In this document: in pieces, positions 22,250 through 39,053 of the stretch | Layout: each line of letters starts with the position of its first letter | How positions within the stretch are numbered: position 1 is the stretch's first letter | DNA from: a virus | DNA: 44,558 nucleotides | Strand: one strand, 5' to 3' | IMG/VR virus record: IMGVR_UViG_3300048016_000294 | Location: 1 to 44,558 of that record | Translations under genes and position numbers: made by a program | The notes under the pieces: generated by a model | The model's database searches: none | Told to the model about the DNA's origin: nothing | The model's input: only the letters and a program-made list of their open reading frames with translations

Positions 22250-24904
22250 TCAAAATACCATCGGCATATCATCATAGTCATCAGTACTATCGGTAATCTC
22301 ATCATCTAACTCACCAACTTCATACAGTGTTTGAAATGCGTCTGGGTCATAAGACGACATCTGTTTGAGCACTCTACATATCAACAACCAGGTACTGATA
22401 CAGTCATCAGTACTCCCTGTCTGTGCAGCATAACTACCCTTCGTCTGTATGTACGTTTTAATTTCGCGGATAATATCAGCGCTCTTCATACCCAACTTAC
22501 CAGCTTCTGTCATTTCCTTAAAAACCTTACAGGCTTGGAGTTTGGTACGAGCATTTGTATTCATACCTATTTGTCGTCCATCATCACTAACGATCGAGAC
22601 ATTCTCAGGCAACTTCTCATCAGTTTCGAATAGCGTTATGATACCCTCACCGACCCCATTGTTCTCGACTGTAAAATGCACCTCCCAACCTGCATCGTCC
22701 GCCTTTTTCCAGATGTACCGTAGTATTTTGTATATGTCGCCTGTTGCGCTGATATTGGAGCGAAACTCCATCATCTGCTCAAGAGTTGGATACTCAACTA
22801 CTGTCACTACTGTATAGTCCCCACCCAAACCCTTACTTGGGTCACAAGTAACAATACACTGCTTGTTATACTCCTTCGTTGGTGGAGGATTGTTGTATTG
22901 TTCAGCGTAGCTATAGTTGTTAAGATTTGTATCACGATTAATAGGAAGGGCACGCGCTTGGTAATCTTTTTCGAAATTCTTCCAAATTTTGATTCCGTGA
23001 TTTGTATCGATGGGTTCCATTGATTTCAGCGTCTGTGCAAAAATACTGGAGATCAGGAGTGGTTCAGATGATAAAAAACGGCACTCAAACTCCTGTTGCC
23101 ACACCAACAAGCCATTCTTGGATATTTCACGCTCTTTAAACGCTTCGTCGCGCCCTGGTACTTGATTCCACTCAATGGCATGCGACACAAACCCATTTGT
23201 GCCAGCCTCGGCACCTCGCCACAGTGTAGCAAACAGATCTGCATCACCGTTTGGTGTAGATGTGATGAATAGCTTACCACCAGTCGCCAGAGTAGGTGAA
23301 ATCGAAGCCCACATCAACTCCTGAACTCTAGGTGGCACGAACCCAACCTCATCCAGATATAGGATCGAAAAAGAACCACCTCGACCAGTCGTCTCGCTAG
23401 TAGCATCACTTTCAATTCGACATCCATTATCAAACTTCAAACTCAGTGCATTCCACCCATCATCCTTAACCCCTGGCTTCAACCACATTGGCAGGTGCTC
23501 GTACATGTACTTGATACGAGTAATCATGGCTCGTGAGTTTTTGTGCTTATTACTCGCGATTAGTACAGTCTTGTCCTTGCGGAAAATAGAGAACCAAAAC
23601 AAATATGCGCAACTGCTCTCAGAATTGTGTGTGAGTATTAACTCAGTCCCAGCACAAAATAGATGATCATGAGCAGCAACAGAAATACACTTAGACTGGA
23701 AGTTTGTTCCTAGCTCTGTTATACCAACTATTGTCCTACTGTTGGAATACCTAGCATGAGGGGCACTAATTCGCTGGCGGCGCAACTTGTGTGGAATCCT
23801 GAACGCATCAAATTGATCTCGTGTGATAATAAAGGATAGTCTGGTGCTGTTTGTCTGCTCGAATTCCTTAGTACTGACCTTAATGCCCAAACTTTCTATT
23901 AGTTGTTTGACGTCTGATATTAGAGTTGTGTTTTTTCTGGTTAACTGAATTGCTAGTTCAGAACCAGTGGAATTGATAAACCCATCTGTGTCCATTAATC
24001 CTTGTAGTAGCGCAATCCTATCAGAAATATGTGCCTGCTTATAACTATCTGGAATACATTTGCTTTTTACGCTCCCTGGCTTTGCCTCCTGGCGTACACC
24101 CAACAAACCAAGCTTTTGGTAGAAGCTTGAGTTTTGTATCAAGTATGATCGGCAGTTTTTACCAATTTGAACTGATGATGGTACGACTTTAAATATGAAA
24201 CCTTGATTTTGAAAGTGATTCGTGTGTTCGTCGTGGCACGTAAAGTATGCGTTTCTGGAGTGACCATCTCCTAACCACGCTCCCAATAGATAAGGCTCGA
24301 TCAACAAATCTGATTTTGAGAATTCGATTGGTTTGACTGTAGGTATGTAATATGCGTACTCGGTATACCCGTTCGACCTCAGCTTACACCAGTTACTATC
24401 TAGCAACTCCTTGGTGGTGAGAGTGCATTTTTTATGCTTTAGGAATCGATTATATGCAGTCCACTTGTGGGTTTCACTAGCGCGTATGACACTACCATCG
24501 TTAAATCTAACTTCATACATATTAGGCTCAGTGAATGTGGGAGATTCGCCAATTACTAGAGTAGGTTTACCATCACTGCCATACACGTAATCGCCAGGGT
24601 GGACATCGCCCATCCGCTTAAAGCCACTTGGTGTGAGTATTGGAGTTTCGATACACAAGTCCTTACCAGATTGCCGCGACCACTTAACAATCACATCCTT
24701 GTTGGTGTGATATTCATCAACAAGCTCTTTTTGGTAGTCGTACATCACGAATAGAGTCTGACCTCTCACGGGGTGACTGACATACACGTAATTTTCAATA
24801 AAGTACAGCGGGTCATTGAAGCACTTAGTGTATTCGATTACCTGAGCCTCAGTCAGGTCTGAAGCCTCGCCTGCTTTTTTAATTAGTGGATTTTTTGTAG
24901 CCAA
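22250..24904 (-). CDS. 17: Large terminase gp17, interrupted by an intein
   Basis: 884 aa including a 346-aa intein (residues 82-427); the spliced enzyme would be 538 aa (T4 gp17 is 610). The start is TTG 24904, supported by AAAGGGG six bases upstream and no ATG nearby. ATPase parts: SRQSGK (76-81) joined after splicing to Ser428 to make a regular GKS P-loop; Walker B ILYLDE (514-519); ITSTPNG coupling motif (547-553). Nuclease parts: Asp688 in TCDPS, Glu747 in FTVENNG, Asp833/834 in STDDC. gp17 pumps DNA into the prohead and cuts it at headful. The gene is on the minus strand in the middle of + strand head genes, tail to tail with the broken gene at 21747. Confidence 0.93.
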   Translation of the reverse strand: MATKNPLIKKAGEASDLTEAQVIEYTKCFNDPLYFIENYVYVSHPVRGQTLFVMYDYQKELVDEYHTNKDVIVKWSRQSGKDLCIETPILTPSGFKRMGDVHPGDYVYGSDGKPTLVIGESPTFTEPNMYEVRFNDGSVIRASETHKWTAYNRFLKHKKCTLTTKELLDSNWCKLRSNGYTEYAYYIPTVKPIEFSKSDLLIEPYLLGAWLGDGHSRNAYFTCHDEHTNHFQNQGFIFKVVPSSVQIGKNCRSYLIQNSSFYQKLGLLGVRQEAKPGSVKSKCIPDSYKQAHISDRIALLQGLMDTDGFINSTGSELAIQLTRKNTTLISDVKQLIESLGIKVSTKEFEQTNSTRLSFIITRDQFDAFRIPHKLRRQRISAPHARYSNSRTIVGITELGTNFQSKCISVAAHDHLFCAGTELILTHNSESSCAYLFWFSIFRKDKTVLIASNKHKNSRAMITRIKYMYEHLPMWLKPGVKDDGWNALSLKFDNGCRIESDATSETTGRGGSFSILYLDEVGFVPPRVQELMWASISPTLATGGKLFITSTPNGDADLFATLWRGAEAGTNGFVSHAIEWNQVPGRDEAFKEREISKNGLLVWQQEFECRFLSSEPLLISSIFAQTLKSMEPIDTNHGIKIWKNFEKDYQARALPINRDTNLNNYSYAEQYNNPPPTKEYNKQCIVTCDPSKGLGGDYTVVTVVEYPTLEQMMEFRSNISATGDIYKILRYIWKKADDAGWEVHFTVENNGVGEGIITLFETDEKLPENVSIVSDDGRQIGMNTNARTKLQACKVFKEMTEAGKLGMKSADIIREIKTYIQTKGSYAAQTGSTDDCISTWLLICRVLKQMSSYDPDAFQTLYEVGELDDEITDSTDDYDDMPMVF
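23624..24661 (-). other. LAGLIDADG intein in terminase P-loop, probable class 3
   Basis: Residues 82-427 of the terminase. It begins DLCIETPILTPSGF, which aligns with intein block A such that Asp82 takes position 1. It has block B ETHKW (144-148), two LAGLIDADG helices (LLGAWLGDG 206-214 and LLQGLMDTDG 299-308), block F SKCISV (404-409) and block G LTHN (424-427) before Ser428. Trp148, Cys406 and Thr425 make the WCT set of class 3 inteins, which lack a nucleophile at position 1. Placing the start at Asp82 restores GK|S; starting at Cys84 would leave a GKDLS P-loop. Confidence 0.8.
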
Positions 24905-24976: not shown

Positions 24977-26398
24977 ATGGCAACACTAACACACGAAACA
25001 TTTTTAGATAATACTAGACAACTCCACGACGGCACACAGCCCACTGATGCCATCACTGTATTACTACACTTAACAATTGTGGGTGCAACCCATGAGCCAA
25101 TCAATCAAACACCTGCAGAGCACATTCATGGAAACCAGGGCTGTCCTCGGTGGGCAACTGTATCAAAGTCTAAGAAATCTCAGACGAAGTGGACACTAGA
25201 TACCTTCTTAAAAAAAGCACACACAACTCATGGTAACAAGTATGAGTATTCTACAGTTAAGTGGACGGAGTCCGACAGCTCAAAAACACGCGTTACAATC
25301 AACTGTCCAGTTCATGGAGAATTCACACAAACGGCAGCAAATCACGTCGGCGGAAACGGTTGTCCAAGGTGTTCGGTAACAGGCGCGCTGTCCAGCGCGG
25401 ATTTTATTGAAAGCACCACTCGTGTGCATGGTGATGTGTATGACTATACCCGAGTACTACACGAATGGACACTAACTACAAAGACAGACTCTAAGGTGAT
25501 GATCACTTGTAGAACCCACGGAGATTTCTACCAAAAAATTGCCAACCACATCCACCTCAAGAATGGTTGTCCGAAGTGTGCCAAAACTTCTCGAACCACT
25601 CAACAGGGGTTTCTCACAAAAGCTCGCACGATACACGGTGACCGATATGATTACTCTAGTGTCGAGTGGTCGGAACAAACTAACGTTAACAGTAAAATTA
25701 CAATCACTTGCATGATGCACGGACTATTCACACAAAACATCCGTAACCACATTGTCGGTAAGAATGGGTGCCCGACTTGTGCAGGTAAGACCAAACTAAC
25801 AAGTCAAGTATTTGTTACCAGAGCTCGTGAGATACATGGCACCAAGTATGATTATTCACGTGTAGTCATCGGTGAAGAGTTCTTCATGAATAATACAAAA
25901 CTCATTATCGGTTGTGAGAAGCACGGTGATTTCACCCAAACCGCAGCCAAACATATAAATGCTAGGACTGGGTGTCCTGGGTGCAAAGCTAGTAAAGGTG
26001 AGGCTGCAGTTCAGATGTGGTTAGATGCTCATAGCATCGCGTACACACCTCAGAAAATGTTCGATGGTTGCATCAACACTCTCACTGGGCGTAAGCTAAA
26101 GTATGACTTTTATGTACCTGAACACAATACGTGTATTGAATTCCACGGCCAACAGCACTATCAAGCAATATTGATTGGCAATAATGACCAGGTTAACTGG
26201 ACACAACAACAGCACACGCGTGCTCAAGTTGTATTTGAAGAACAACGCCACCGAGATCGAGTGAAGGTGCAATATTGTGTTGATAATGACATCAAGATGT
26301 TGGTAATTGCATATACTGAAATCAAACAAGTTGATGTGTTGTTGACTAATTTTTTCTGTTTGGGTTTAGATGTGTCGTTAAAATCTGGAGTTCATTAA
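24977..26398 (+). CDS. Free-standing Vsr/PD-(D/E)XK-type homing endonuclease with zinc repeats
   Basis: 473 aa. It holds five units of about 60 residues of the form HG-x-x-YDYS...ITC-x-x-HG-x-F-x-Q...NH...GCPxC (DUF723-like zinc repeats). The first unit is degenerate and has lost most Cys. The C-terminal third has KYDFYVPEHNTCIEFHGQQHY followed by basic H-x-x-R helices and IKMLVIAYTE, the pattern of the Vsr-like homing endonuclease family (EDxHD/I-Bth0305I type). The zinc repeats probably bind DNA. The gene lies divergent from the intein-bearing terminase, and such enzymes cut conserved phage genes that lack the element. It is probably mobile, inserted between gp17 and gp19 genes. Confidence 0.75.
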   Translation: MATLTHETFLDNTRQLHDGTQPTDAITVLLHLTIVGATHEPINQTPAEHIHGNQGCPRWATVSKSKKSQTKWTLDTFLKKAHTTHGNKYEYSTVKWTESDSSKTRVTINCPVHGEFTQTAANHVGGNGCPRCSVTGALSSADFIESTTRVHGDVYDYTRVLHEWTLTTKTDSKVMITCRTHGDFYQKIANHIHLKNGCPKCAKTSRTTQQGFLTKARTIHGDRYDYSSVEWSEQTNVNSKITITCMMHGLFTQNIRNHIVGKNGCPTCAGKTKLTSQVFVTRAREIHGTKYDYSRVVIGEEFFMNNTKLIIGCEKHGDFTQTAAKHINARTGCPGCKASKGEAAVQMWLDAHSIAYTPQKMFDGCINTLTGRKLKYDFYVPEHNTCIEFHGQQHYQAILIGNNDQVNWTQQQHTRAQVVFEEQRHRDRVKVQYCVDNDIKMLVIAYTEIKQVDVLLTNFFCLGLDVSLKSGVH

Positions 26399-35224: not shown

Positions 35225-36880
35225 ATGCAACCTACGCCCCCAACCCCATACGCTACATCTCTGTTAGAGAAGAACCAGATTCAACTGTTAGAGCCATTTA
35301 AGGGAGCCAAAGCACACCATCAAATGAAATGTGTCGTGTGCAATCACGTGTGGTCTGCGACACCGCTATCCAAGAGACAGGCATTTAAGAAGAATGGAGT
35401 CTCGGGGTGCCCTAACTGCCACAACCAACGGAGACTAGCCGCAGTCCACAGTGTGCAAACACCAATATTGGATATGTGGGCAAGGGAAGGGTTAGAAGTG
35501 CTTAGTCCTTTCACAGGTCTTAGGCAAACAACCCACAAGTTGTGGTTCTATAACAACAAGTGTGGCCATAAGTTTGAAACTTACCCAGGAAATTTGATAA
35601 ACCTGAACTCAGTATGCATTGTCTGTGGTATACACGACCGCACTTCGGGTGTGACAGCGTGGTCGAAAACTAATTCAACCAAGTGGAGAGAGACAGCACC
35701 CGCATGGCGATCGTACAAAGCAATGGTATCTGCACTGACCGAAGAGACGTACCGAAATTTCAAACACATCATAAACCCCAACAACCTGCCACGTGGCAGG
35801 GCGGGCGTCCAGGGTGCATATCACTTAGACCACTTTGTCCCCACGAGATACTGCTTCGACAATAACATCCCCCCAGAAGTGTGTGCTGATGCGTCGAATT
35901 TGCAGATGTTGGGGTGGAGAGAAAATGTAGGATCTCGCCACAATATTAAAGGTGTGATTCCCCCACTATTTTTCAAATATATTTCAGCAAATTCGAAAAT
36001 TGAATACTTCGCTGATGTCCTACAGGGCATTTTCCCGACAGGACAAAAGTTTATCAGGGTGGGAGAAGTTGTAGTGACATTTTTTGACCCCTTATCAAAC
36101 CGCGCGTTGGTTGTACTATCAATTCAAGACAAAAGATCTAATCGGCGCAATGCATTAGTAACTTCAAGAGCACTAGCAGACGCAGGTGTTAAGTATACGA
36201 TACTATTTGAGGATGAATTTAACAACATCAATCTACTATCTGCAAAGTTAAAGCACTACACTCAATTAGGAACTCCCAACAGGATTCATGCTAGACAGTG
36301 TACGATTCGAGAGTGTCCTCCTGCTGAGAAAAAGCAATTGTTAGATAGTAACCACATACAGGGGAATGATACGTGTTCAATATCACTGGGAGCATACTTT
36401 GAAACTACGTTGGTTGCGGTAATGACATTCTCCGCTCCGCGGGTCGCTCTTGGGCAAAAGAATAAATCACTATCCGACAAGCAAGGTGTGTGGGAATTAA
36501 GTAGATTCTGTACTGATGTTAAGTACCGTATCCCTGGAATTGCATCCAAGTTACTGACCCACTTCAAGCGAACCCAACCGGATTGGCGGCGGATATACAG
36601 CTTTGCTGATAAGAGGTGGAGTGTGGGTAACATGTATACCATACTTGGATTCAAACTAACAGTAGACAATCCACCATCTTATTTCTACGTAGTTGACGGT
36701 GTTCGTAAGCACAGGTGGAACTATCGTAAGGACAATCTCAAAAAGATCCTTCCTCAGTTCGACCCCAAACTAACGGAGTATGCTAATATGGAATTGCATG
36801 GGTTCTGGAGAGTCTGGGATTGTGGGACATTAAAATTTGAAGTGAACCGAGCTGACCTAAGCTGTGACTCACCTGTGTAG
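35225..36880 (+). CDS. Free-standing HNH homing endonuclease
   Basis: 551 aa. N-terminal zinc-type pairs (C36/C39, C62/C65, C131/C134) lead to an HNH-like core: HLDH at 200-203, then N225 and N234 in a short beta-beta-alpha stretch. The C-terminal half has a region with SFADKRWSVGNMYTILGF and PSYFYVVDG, followed by basic RKHRWNYRKDNLKK; I know this unit from other phage homing endonucleases, where it resembles an acetyltransferase fold. It sits alone between the capsid terminator and the GroES-like gene. Probably a mobile element targeting a neighbouring capsid-region sequence. Confidence 0.72.
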   Translation: MQPTPPTPYATSLLEKNQIQLLEPFKGAKAHHQMKCVVCNHVWSATPLSKRQAFKKNGVSGCPNCHNQRRLAAVHSVQTPILDMWAREGLEVLSPFTGLRQTTHKLWFYNNKCGHKFETYPGNLINLNSVCIVCGIHDRTSGVTAWSKTNSTKWRETAPAWRSYKAMVSALTEETYRNFKHIINPNNLPRGRAGVQGAYHLDHFVPTRYCFDNNIPPEVCADASNLQMLGWRENVGSRHNIKGVIPPLFFKYISANSKIEYFADVLQGIFPTGQKFIRVGEVVVTFFDPLSNRALVVLSIQDKRSNRRNALVTSRALADAGVKYTILFEDEFNNINLLSAKLKHYTQLGTPNRIHARQCTIRECPPAEKKQLLDSNHIQGNDTCSISLGAYFETTLVAVMTFSAPRVALGQKNKSLSDKQGVWELSRFCTDVKYRIPGIASKLLTHFKRTQPDWRRIYSFADKRWSVGNMYTILGFKLTVDNPPSYFYVVDGVRKHRWNYRKDNLKKILPQFDPKLTEYANMELHGFWRVWDCGTLKFEVNRADLSCDSPV

Positions 36881-38066: not shown

Positions 38067-39053
38067 TCATCGGGAATTCGTCAGCTTTCTATTGTTGTAT
38101 GTTGGTATGTCGAATTCCTGTTCAATTACCTTTCTCAAGTAGGTCCTGCTGGCAGGTAAATCAATAGACTCTGCTATTTGTTTCCATCTGAACTCAGGAT
38201 TTGCTGTAACCACTGCTCTAATCTTATCCAAGTATTGGTCGTCGGATATCCCAGTCCACCTTCCATTCTTTTCTTTCGGTCGAGAGGCTTTTGATGGATC
38301 TTTGACCTTGCGCCCTGTGTTTACGTGGACCAGCTCACCAGTAACTAATCGCTCATCTGTCTTTAGTACTTGGAAACTGTTGCCGTCCTTATCCTTGACA
38401 TTTATCCTACCTTTAGCCAAGTGACAAAAGCCCGAAGGCAATTCGTCGCACCGGTTGTGTTGTCTGATCTCACCAGTTTCAATATTTCTAATGGACACAG
38501 TACTTTTCCACATAGGTTGTAGCTCCCCTGATGTTATCCTAATATCATCGACTGGAACTTGGTAGTAACTTCCCGTAGAATCCCTAACTACTGCTCTCCC
38601 TATGCTAGATACATTGGGTCGCCCTCTCCTTTTACTCGGCCCGTACTTTGCTCCTCTATTAAATGGAATATAACTACCAGCTACATACAGAGGGTGATCT
38701 ATGGGCACAGGTCCGATGTAAATTCCAGTCACTGCACACCTGACGTTTACCGTAGTGTTGATGTATACTCCAGAACCAGATTGCTTATTCAACCAATTGA
38801 GTCTACCAGCGGCTCTTAGTCGCTTCAGTACTCTCGATTCCCACTCTCTGCACTTGTTACCATCACTGAAAACTTTTCGGATTTTGACCACATCTGGCTC
38901 GCCGTATTTCAATCGACAATCCTTCACTACTTTAGATGATGTGAAGTATGTAACCCATAGATTATCTGGATTTGCATTTTTTCCGTATTGGCATCCGTAG
39001 TACCATCGATCTAATGTTGACCAACCAATCAAATAGGTGTATGATGTGCGCAT
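38067..39053 (-). CDS. GIY-YIG-type homing endonuclease
   Basis: 328 aa. The N-terminal domain has YLIG (7-10) and YYG (18-20), the two halves of the GIY-YIG motif, then LWVTYFTSSKVVKD, and Glu72 in CREWESRVLKR as the likely metal ligand. The middle is basic with repeated small beta units (VRCAVTGIYIGPVP, VSIRNIETGEIRQHNRCDELP) of the NUMOD type that help bind DNA. The end looks like a helix-turn-helix (FRWKQIAESIDLPASRTYLRKVIEQEF). It lies between genes of different strands. Probably mobile. Confidence 0.72.
   Translation of the reverse strand: MRTSYTYLIGWSTLDRWYYGCQYGKNANPDNLWVTYFTSSKVVKDCRLKYGEPDVVKIRKVFSDGNKCREWESRVLKRLRAAGRLNWLNKQSGSGVYINTTVNVRCAVTGIYIGPVPIDHPLYVAGSYIPFNRGAKYGPSKRRGRPNVSSIGRAVVRDSTGSYYQVPVDDIRITSGELQPMWKSTVSIRNIETGEIRQHNRCDELPSGFCHLAKGRINVKDKDGNSFQVLKTDERLVTGELVHVNTGRKVKDPSKASRPKEKNGRWTGISDDQYLDKIRAVVTANPEFRWKQIAESIDLPASRTYLRKVIEQEFDIPTYNNRKLTNSR

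Follow-up and report, generated by a model that had tools for sequence, protein, structure and literature searches.

The question raised by this locus is which element interrupts the Walker A motif of a large terminase gene, and at which residue it begins, the apparent first residue being neither Cys nor Ser. The gene lies in a virus record of 44,558 bases, possibly a fragment, that was analysed over its whole length (hereafter the window). The precursor encoded by this gene (Table 1) matches phrog_36964 (terminase) in a PHROG search (E=1.4e-110, aa 8-862) as well as Pfam Terminase_6N, and its TTG start aligns with Met1 of the XacN1 homologue. As judged from the PHROG match and the alignment, the ATPase and the C-terminal region of a T4 gp17-like terminase are both kept across the spliced exteins. 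The genes around it encode a T4-like portal, a head maturation protease, a tail tube and gp23 capsid proteins, which indicates that the window derives from a T4-like myovirus. Three IMG/VR contigs share the terminase frame and its insert; at the DNA level one of them is identical to the window and the other two are 97-98% identical to it. Neither tRNA genes nor, at the Rfam gathering threshold, structured RNAs including group I introns were found in the window, and a search with NCBIfam gave weak matches alone, all under the cut-off. Our analysis indicates that the insert is almost certainly a full-length intein of class 3 that carries a LAGLIDADG homing endonuclease and sits in the Walker A motif between Lys81 and Ser428.

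Table 1. Features of the terminase gene and its insert (window positions; a slash within a motif marks a junction, here and in the text)
Feature	Coordinates	Strand	Remarks
Large terminase (T4 gp17-like) precursor ORF	22250..24904	-	884 aa, TTG start
N-extein	24662-24904	-	aa 1-81 of the precursor
N-extein side of Walker A, KWSRQSGK	24662..24685	-	empty homologues read GK followed by S or T here
Class 3 intein	23624..24661	-	346 aa, Asp82-Asn427 of the precursor
Block A, DLCIET	24644..24661	-	Asp82 = position 1, Cys84 = 3, Thr87 = 6
Block B, SETHKW	24461..24478	-	His146 and Trp148 (W of WCT); columns invariant; aligned to class 3 DnaB inteins
LAGLIDADG motifs, WLGDG (Asp213) and MDTDG (Asp307)	23981..24277	-	Pfam matches; both intact
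Block F, KCISV	23678..23692	-	Cys406 = C of WCT, predicted branch-point nucleophile; invariant; aligned to class 3 DnaB inteins of the PDB
Block G, LTHN/S	23621..23635	-	Thr425 (T of WCT), His426, Asn427; Ser428 = +1, first C-extein residue
C-extein	22250-23623	-	aa 428-884 and stop of the precursor

The assignment to class 3 relies on comparison with inteins of solved structure. When the intein was searched singly against the PDB with phmmer, class 3 DnaB inteins came out on top (6bs8, E=9e-14), the next intein being a WCT-engineered gp41-1 (E=0.002). A profile built from seven terminase inteins likewise placed 6rix (E=5e-33), 6riy and 6bs8 first, with E-values from 5e-33 to 1e-30, and the alignment to 6rix puts the W, C and T columns in register. 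The gp41-1 inteins scored far lower with this profile (44.7 bits for the WCT-engineered 6riz, 35.6 for the native class 1 intein 6qaz). Since the class 3 DnaB inteins rank first, far ahead of the next intein, the WCT match is not a chance one. Trp148 stands two residues past the block B His146, Cys406 at position 4 of block F, and Thr425 at position 5 of block G, followed by His426-Asn427/Ser428. An alignment of 26 inteins, two of which (from the window and contig L003) have nearly the same sequence, shows no variation at the W, C, T, H and N residues, nor at the G and K before the junction. In a capped scan of IMG/VR that used a block B pattern in which the Trp was fixed, junctions could be parsed automatically for 69 inteins from the best 80 matches, the resulting counts holding for this sample only. 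WCT was present in 65 of the 69, a count biased upward because the pattern fixed the block B Trp, and the GK/S or GK/T site in 45. Residue 1 was Ala in 47 of them, Pro in 11, Met in 3, Gln in 2, Gly in 2, and Glu, Cys, Lys and Leu in one each; Asp was absent from these 69.

The position of the N-terminal junction decides how this Asp is to be read. The insert spans 1038 nt, i.e. 346 codons, in frame within the ORF, and joining Lys81 to Ser428 gives SRQSGK/SESSCAY, a regular P-loop. Intein-free terminase homologues, classified by script from the sequence directly upstream of their C-extein match, read GK followed by Ser or Thr in all cases (94/94) and never carry residues in between (0/94). The nearest have exteins 38-43% identical to ours and include XacN1 (ARQTGK/TETSCAF) and L038 (ARQSGK/TETTCAY); no empty allele with exteins above about 43% identity was found. 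As the empty homologues have no extra residues after GK, the Asp-Leu pair is assigned to the intein, whose first residue is then Asp82. Counting from Asp82 also brings the block A Thr to position 6, as in the relatives. Position 1 is thus occupied by a residue other than the Cys or Ser nucleophile of class 1 inteins, on both the empty-site comparison and the alignment of 26 inteins. A class 1 intein starting at Cys84, the third residue of the insert and a potential nucleophile, would leave Asp-Leu in the mature P-loop (GKDLS) and so disrupt the Walker A motif. It would also move the conserved Thr87 to position 4, and further class 3 inteins that do not begin with Cys have one at position 3 as well (QLCLET in L137, PLCIDT in L143). 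With the empty homologues and the motif spacing both against it, Cys84 as residue 1 appears ruled out, and we consider this reading hardly conceivable. The initial annotation had delimited the intein at 23624-24661 and named K81, D82, C84, W148, C406, T425 and S428, all of which proved correct, and H426 and N427 are in place as well. Its reading of Asp rather than Cys or Ser at position 1, of Trp148/Cys406/Thr425 as the WCT set, of an insertion exactly at GK/S and of a LAGLIDADG nuclease inside the intein also stands. Empty terminases with an extra DL after GK, which it had named as contrary evidence, are excluded among the 94 homologues.

That the class 3 intein starting at Asp82 has decayed, with poor splicing or cleavage and an impaired terminase, is another reading to consider, Asp1 being rare and a class 3 intein pseudogene (Arsp-FB24) having been reported. 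The comparison with L003, 98% identical in DNA over this region, bears on the same point. Eight base differences fall in the intein and two in the exteins. Of the codons changed, 5 are nonsynonymous and 2 synonymous in the former, versus one of each in the latter. This preponderance of mostly nonsynonymous changes in the intein hints at looser constraint. However, none of them touches a splicing or LAGLIDADG residue, all of these residues are intact in the window, and the C-extein is identical or almost so in relatives, as expected for a working terminase. Moreover, a class 3 terminase intein starting with Asp (DLGHNT) is present in mycobacteriophage Optimus, whose gp7 is reported to be identical to gp6 of BAKA (PMC3706429). 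For the TerL1-b intein of BAKA, rapid splicing in a reporter and cleavage of a terminase gene that lacks the intein have been reported (PMC5050341). Asp1 is therefore compatible with activity, and we judge decay highly improbable. The rare Asp1 together with Cys at position 3 could in principle modify the step at the N-junction or make splicing conditional, for example through redox control, so that the intein would gate phage DNA packaging. This is quite unlikely in our opinion; no evidence for regulated splicing was found in this analysis.

For a working class 3 intein starting at Asp82, we can predict the following steps. Cys406, within a Cys-His146-Thr425 catalytic site, would attack the Lys81-Asp82 bond to give a branched thioester, and the N-extein would then be transferred to Ser428. 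Cyclisation of Asn427 would release the intein, and an acyl shift would produce the native SRQSGKS P-loop. We infer such splicing and branch chemistry for the present copy, as well as DNA cutting: its nuclease would cleave intein-free terminase genes at the Lys/Ser codon pair, and recombination would spread the element. The unspliced ATPase would be inactive until excision, as 346 residues of chain separate the Lys of Walker A from its Ser. What is established about Walker A motifs makes an active unspliced ATPase unlikely, and packaging should thus require splicing. The nuclease itself is recognised by Pfam (LAGLIDADG_3, E=4e-8; Hom_end, E=1e-6), and the acidic residues are retained in both of its motifs. 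The intein was modelled with AlphaFold2 together with eight extein residues per side (mean pLDDT 87.4, pTM 0.88), and the model was compared with known structures using Foldseek. The top match was PI-SceI (E=4e-19); class 3 DnaB inteins matched the part that splices, at E-values of about 2e-7 to 7e-7. According to this model and the Pfam matches, the insert consists of a Hint splicing domain into which a LAGLIDADG nuclease with two motifs is set.

The distribution of the intein is patchy. On a quick tree of the C-exteins of 41 terminases, in which many forks are open, the presence of an intein changes at least six times, three of these changes being forced by starred branches. The window falls in a starred set of 13 in which 11 terminases are empty and L177 is the sole other carrier. 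Such a spread fits horizontal movement, gain and loss being indistinguishable on this tree, and is consistent with active homing through cutting of the intein-free allele. The tree of the inteins themselves contained no starred set including that of the window. In a local phage collection, 713 named records match the window intein, 519 of them over at least 80% of its length; among them are inteins from helicases, exonucleases and further proteins, and some of the matches may not be of class 3.

Class 3 inteins with WCT and LAGLIDADG motifs occupy the same GK/S or GK/T site in the terminases of RaK2, JNE01, fENko-Kae01, ECD7 (Krischvirus), Synechococcus B23 and Alishewanella Slicko01, and an intein plus LAGLIDADG was noted for the RaK2 and K64-1 terminases (PMC5259590). 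The novelty implied by the initial annotation was overstated. These six inteins are nevertheless just 30-36% identical to that of the window, have Ala at residue 1 and Thr at +1 instead of Asp and Ser, and their exteins stand on other branches of the tree. The mycobacteriophage TerL1-b intein (BAKA gp6, Optimus gp7) resembles ours in being a class 3 intein with Asp1, WCT and LAGLIDADG in the P-loop, but it is inserted one residue later (GKG/D...HN/S) and is about 30% identical. The mycobacterial DnaB class 3 mini-inteins (6rix, 6riy, 6bs8), the best PDB matches by sequence, share the Hint fold and WCT, whereas their host protein is a replicative helicase and their solved chains of 139-146 aa have no match in the nuclease region. 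A survey counted 1701 class 3 inteins, 82.5% with LAGLIDADG motifs (PMC7891396). The element is thus of a common, already described kind. It represents a divergent class 3 intein of full length, with which its relatives, the near-identical contigs aside, share no more than about 41% identity. Its Asp1 is uncommon, and the site is one already known as a hot spot of terminase inteins. This fits the published view of phages as a reservoir of class 3 inteins and will not surprise the specialist.

In this protein family, apparent split inteins are found at the same point of insertion too, the gene being in two ORFs, unlike that of the window. In Agrobacterium phage Atu_ph07 (L010; MF403008.1, 79548-81739), one ORF reads GRQLGK/SVHKST... 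up to a stop and the other ...ILSHN/TTVAAAY, which looks like a natural split intein. The terminase genes of L053 (2020-7338) and L055 (5132-7338) are fractured at this P-loop site as well (GK/SLQANT... and GK/CISSHV...), with C-parts that end in SHN/T, and in L053 an endonuclease-like ORF separates the two halves. Residue 1 being Ser or Cys, these three are class 1-like. L125 (324-4241) has a terminase with a P-loop class 3 intein and, at Walker B, an apparent second, fractured intein (SLIY/CLDGDT... up to a stop, and ...HSHQ/CDEFAFV) with an HNH-like ORF between its halves.

Beside the intein, the 44.5-kb window holds three free-standing homing-endonuclease candidates. The ORF at 24977-26398 (+), with DUF723/treble-clef repeats and a match to phrog_559, lies directly upstream of the terminase gene, in divergent orientation. 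A related ORF adjoins the intein-bearing terminase of L177 (3026-3772), and none was detected at the tested empty-terminase loci, some of which have short flanks. At 35225-36880 (+), directly after the gp23 capsid gene, lies an ORF for a protein that resembles HNH homing endonucleases and has a Mom-like domain at its C-terminus. The third candidate, at 38067-39053 (-), is related to phrog_12434 and phrog_314.
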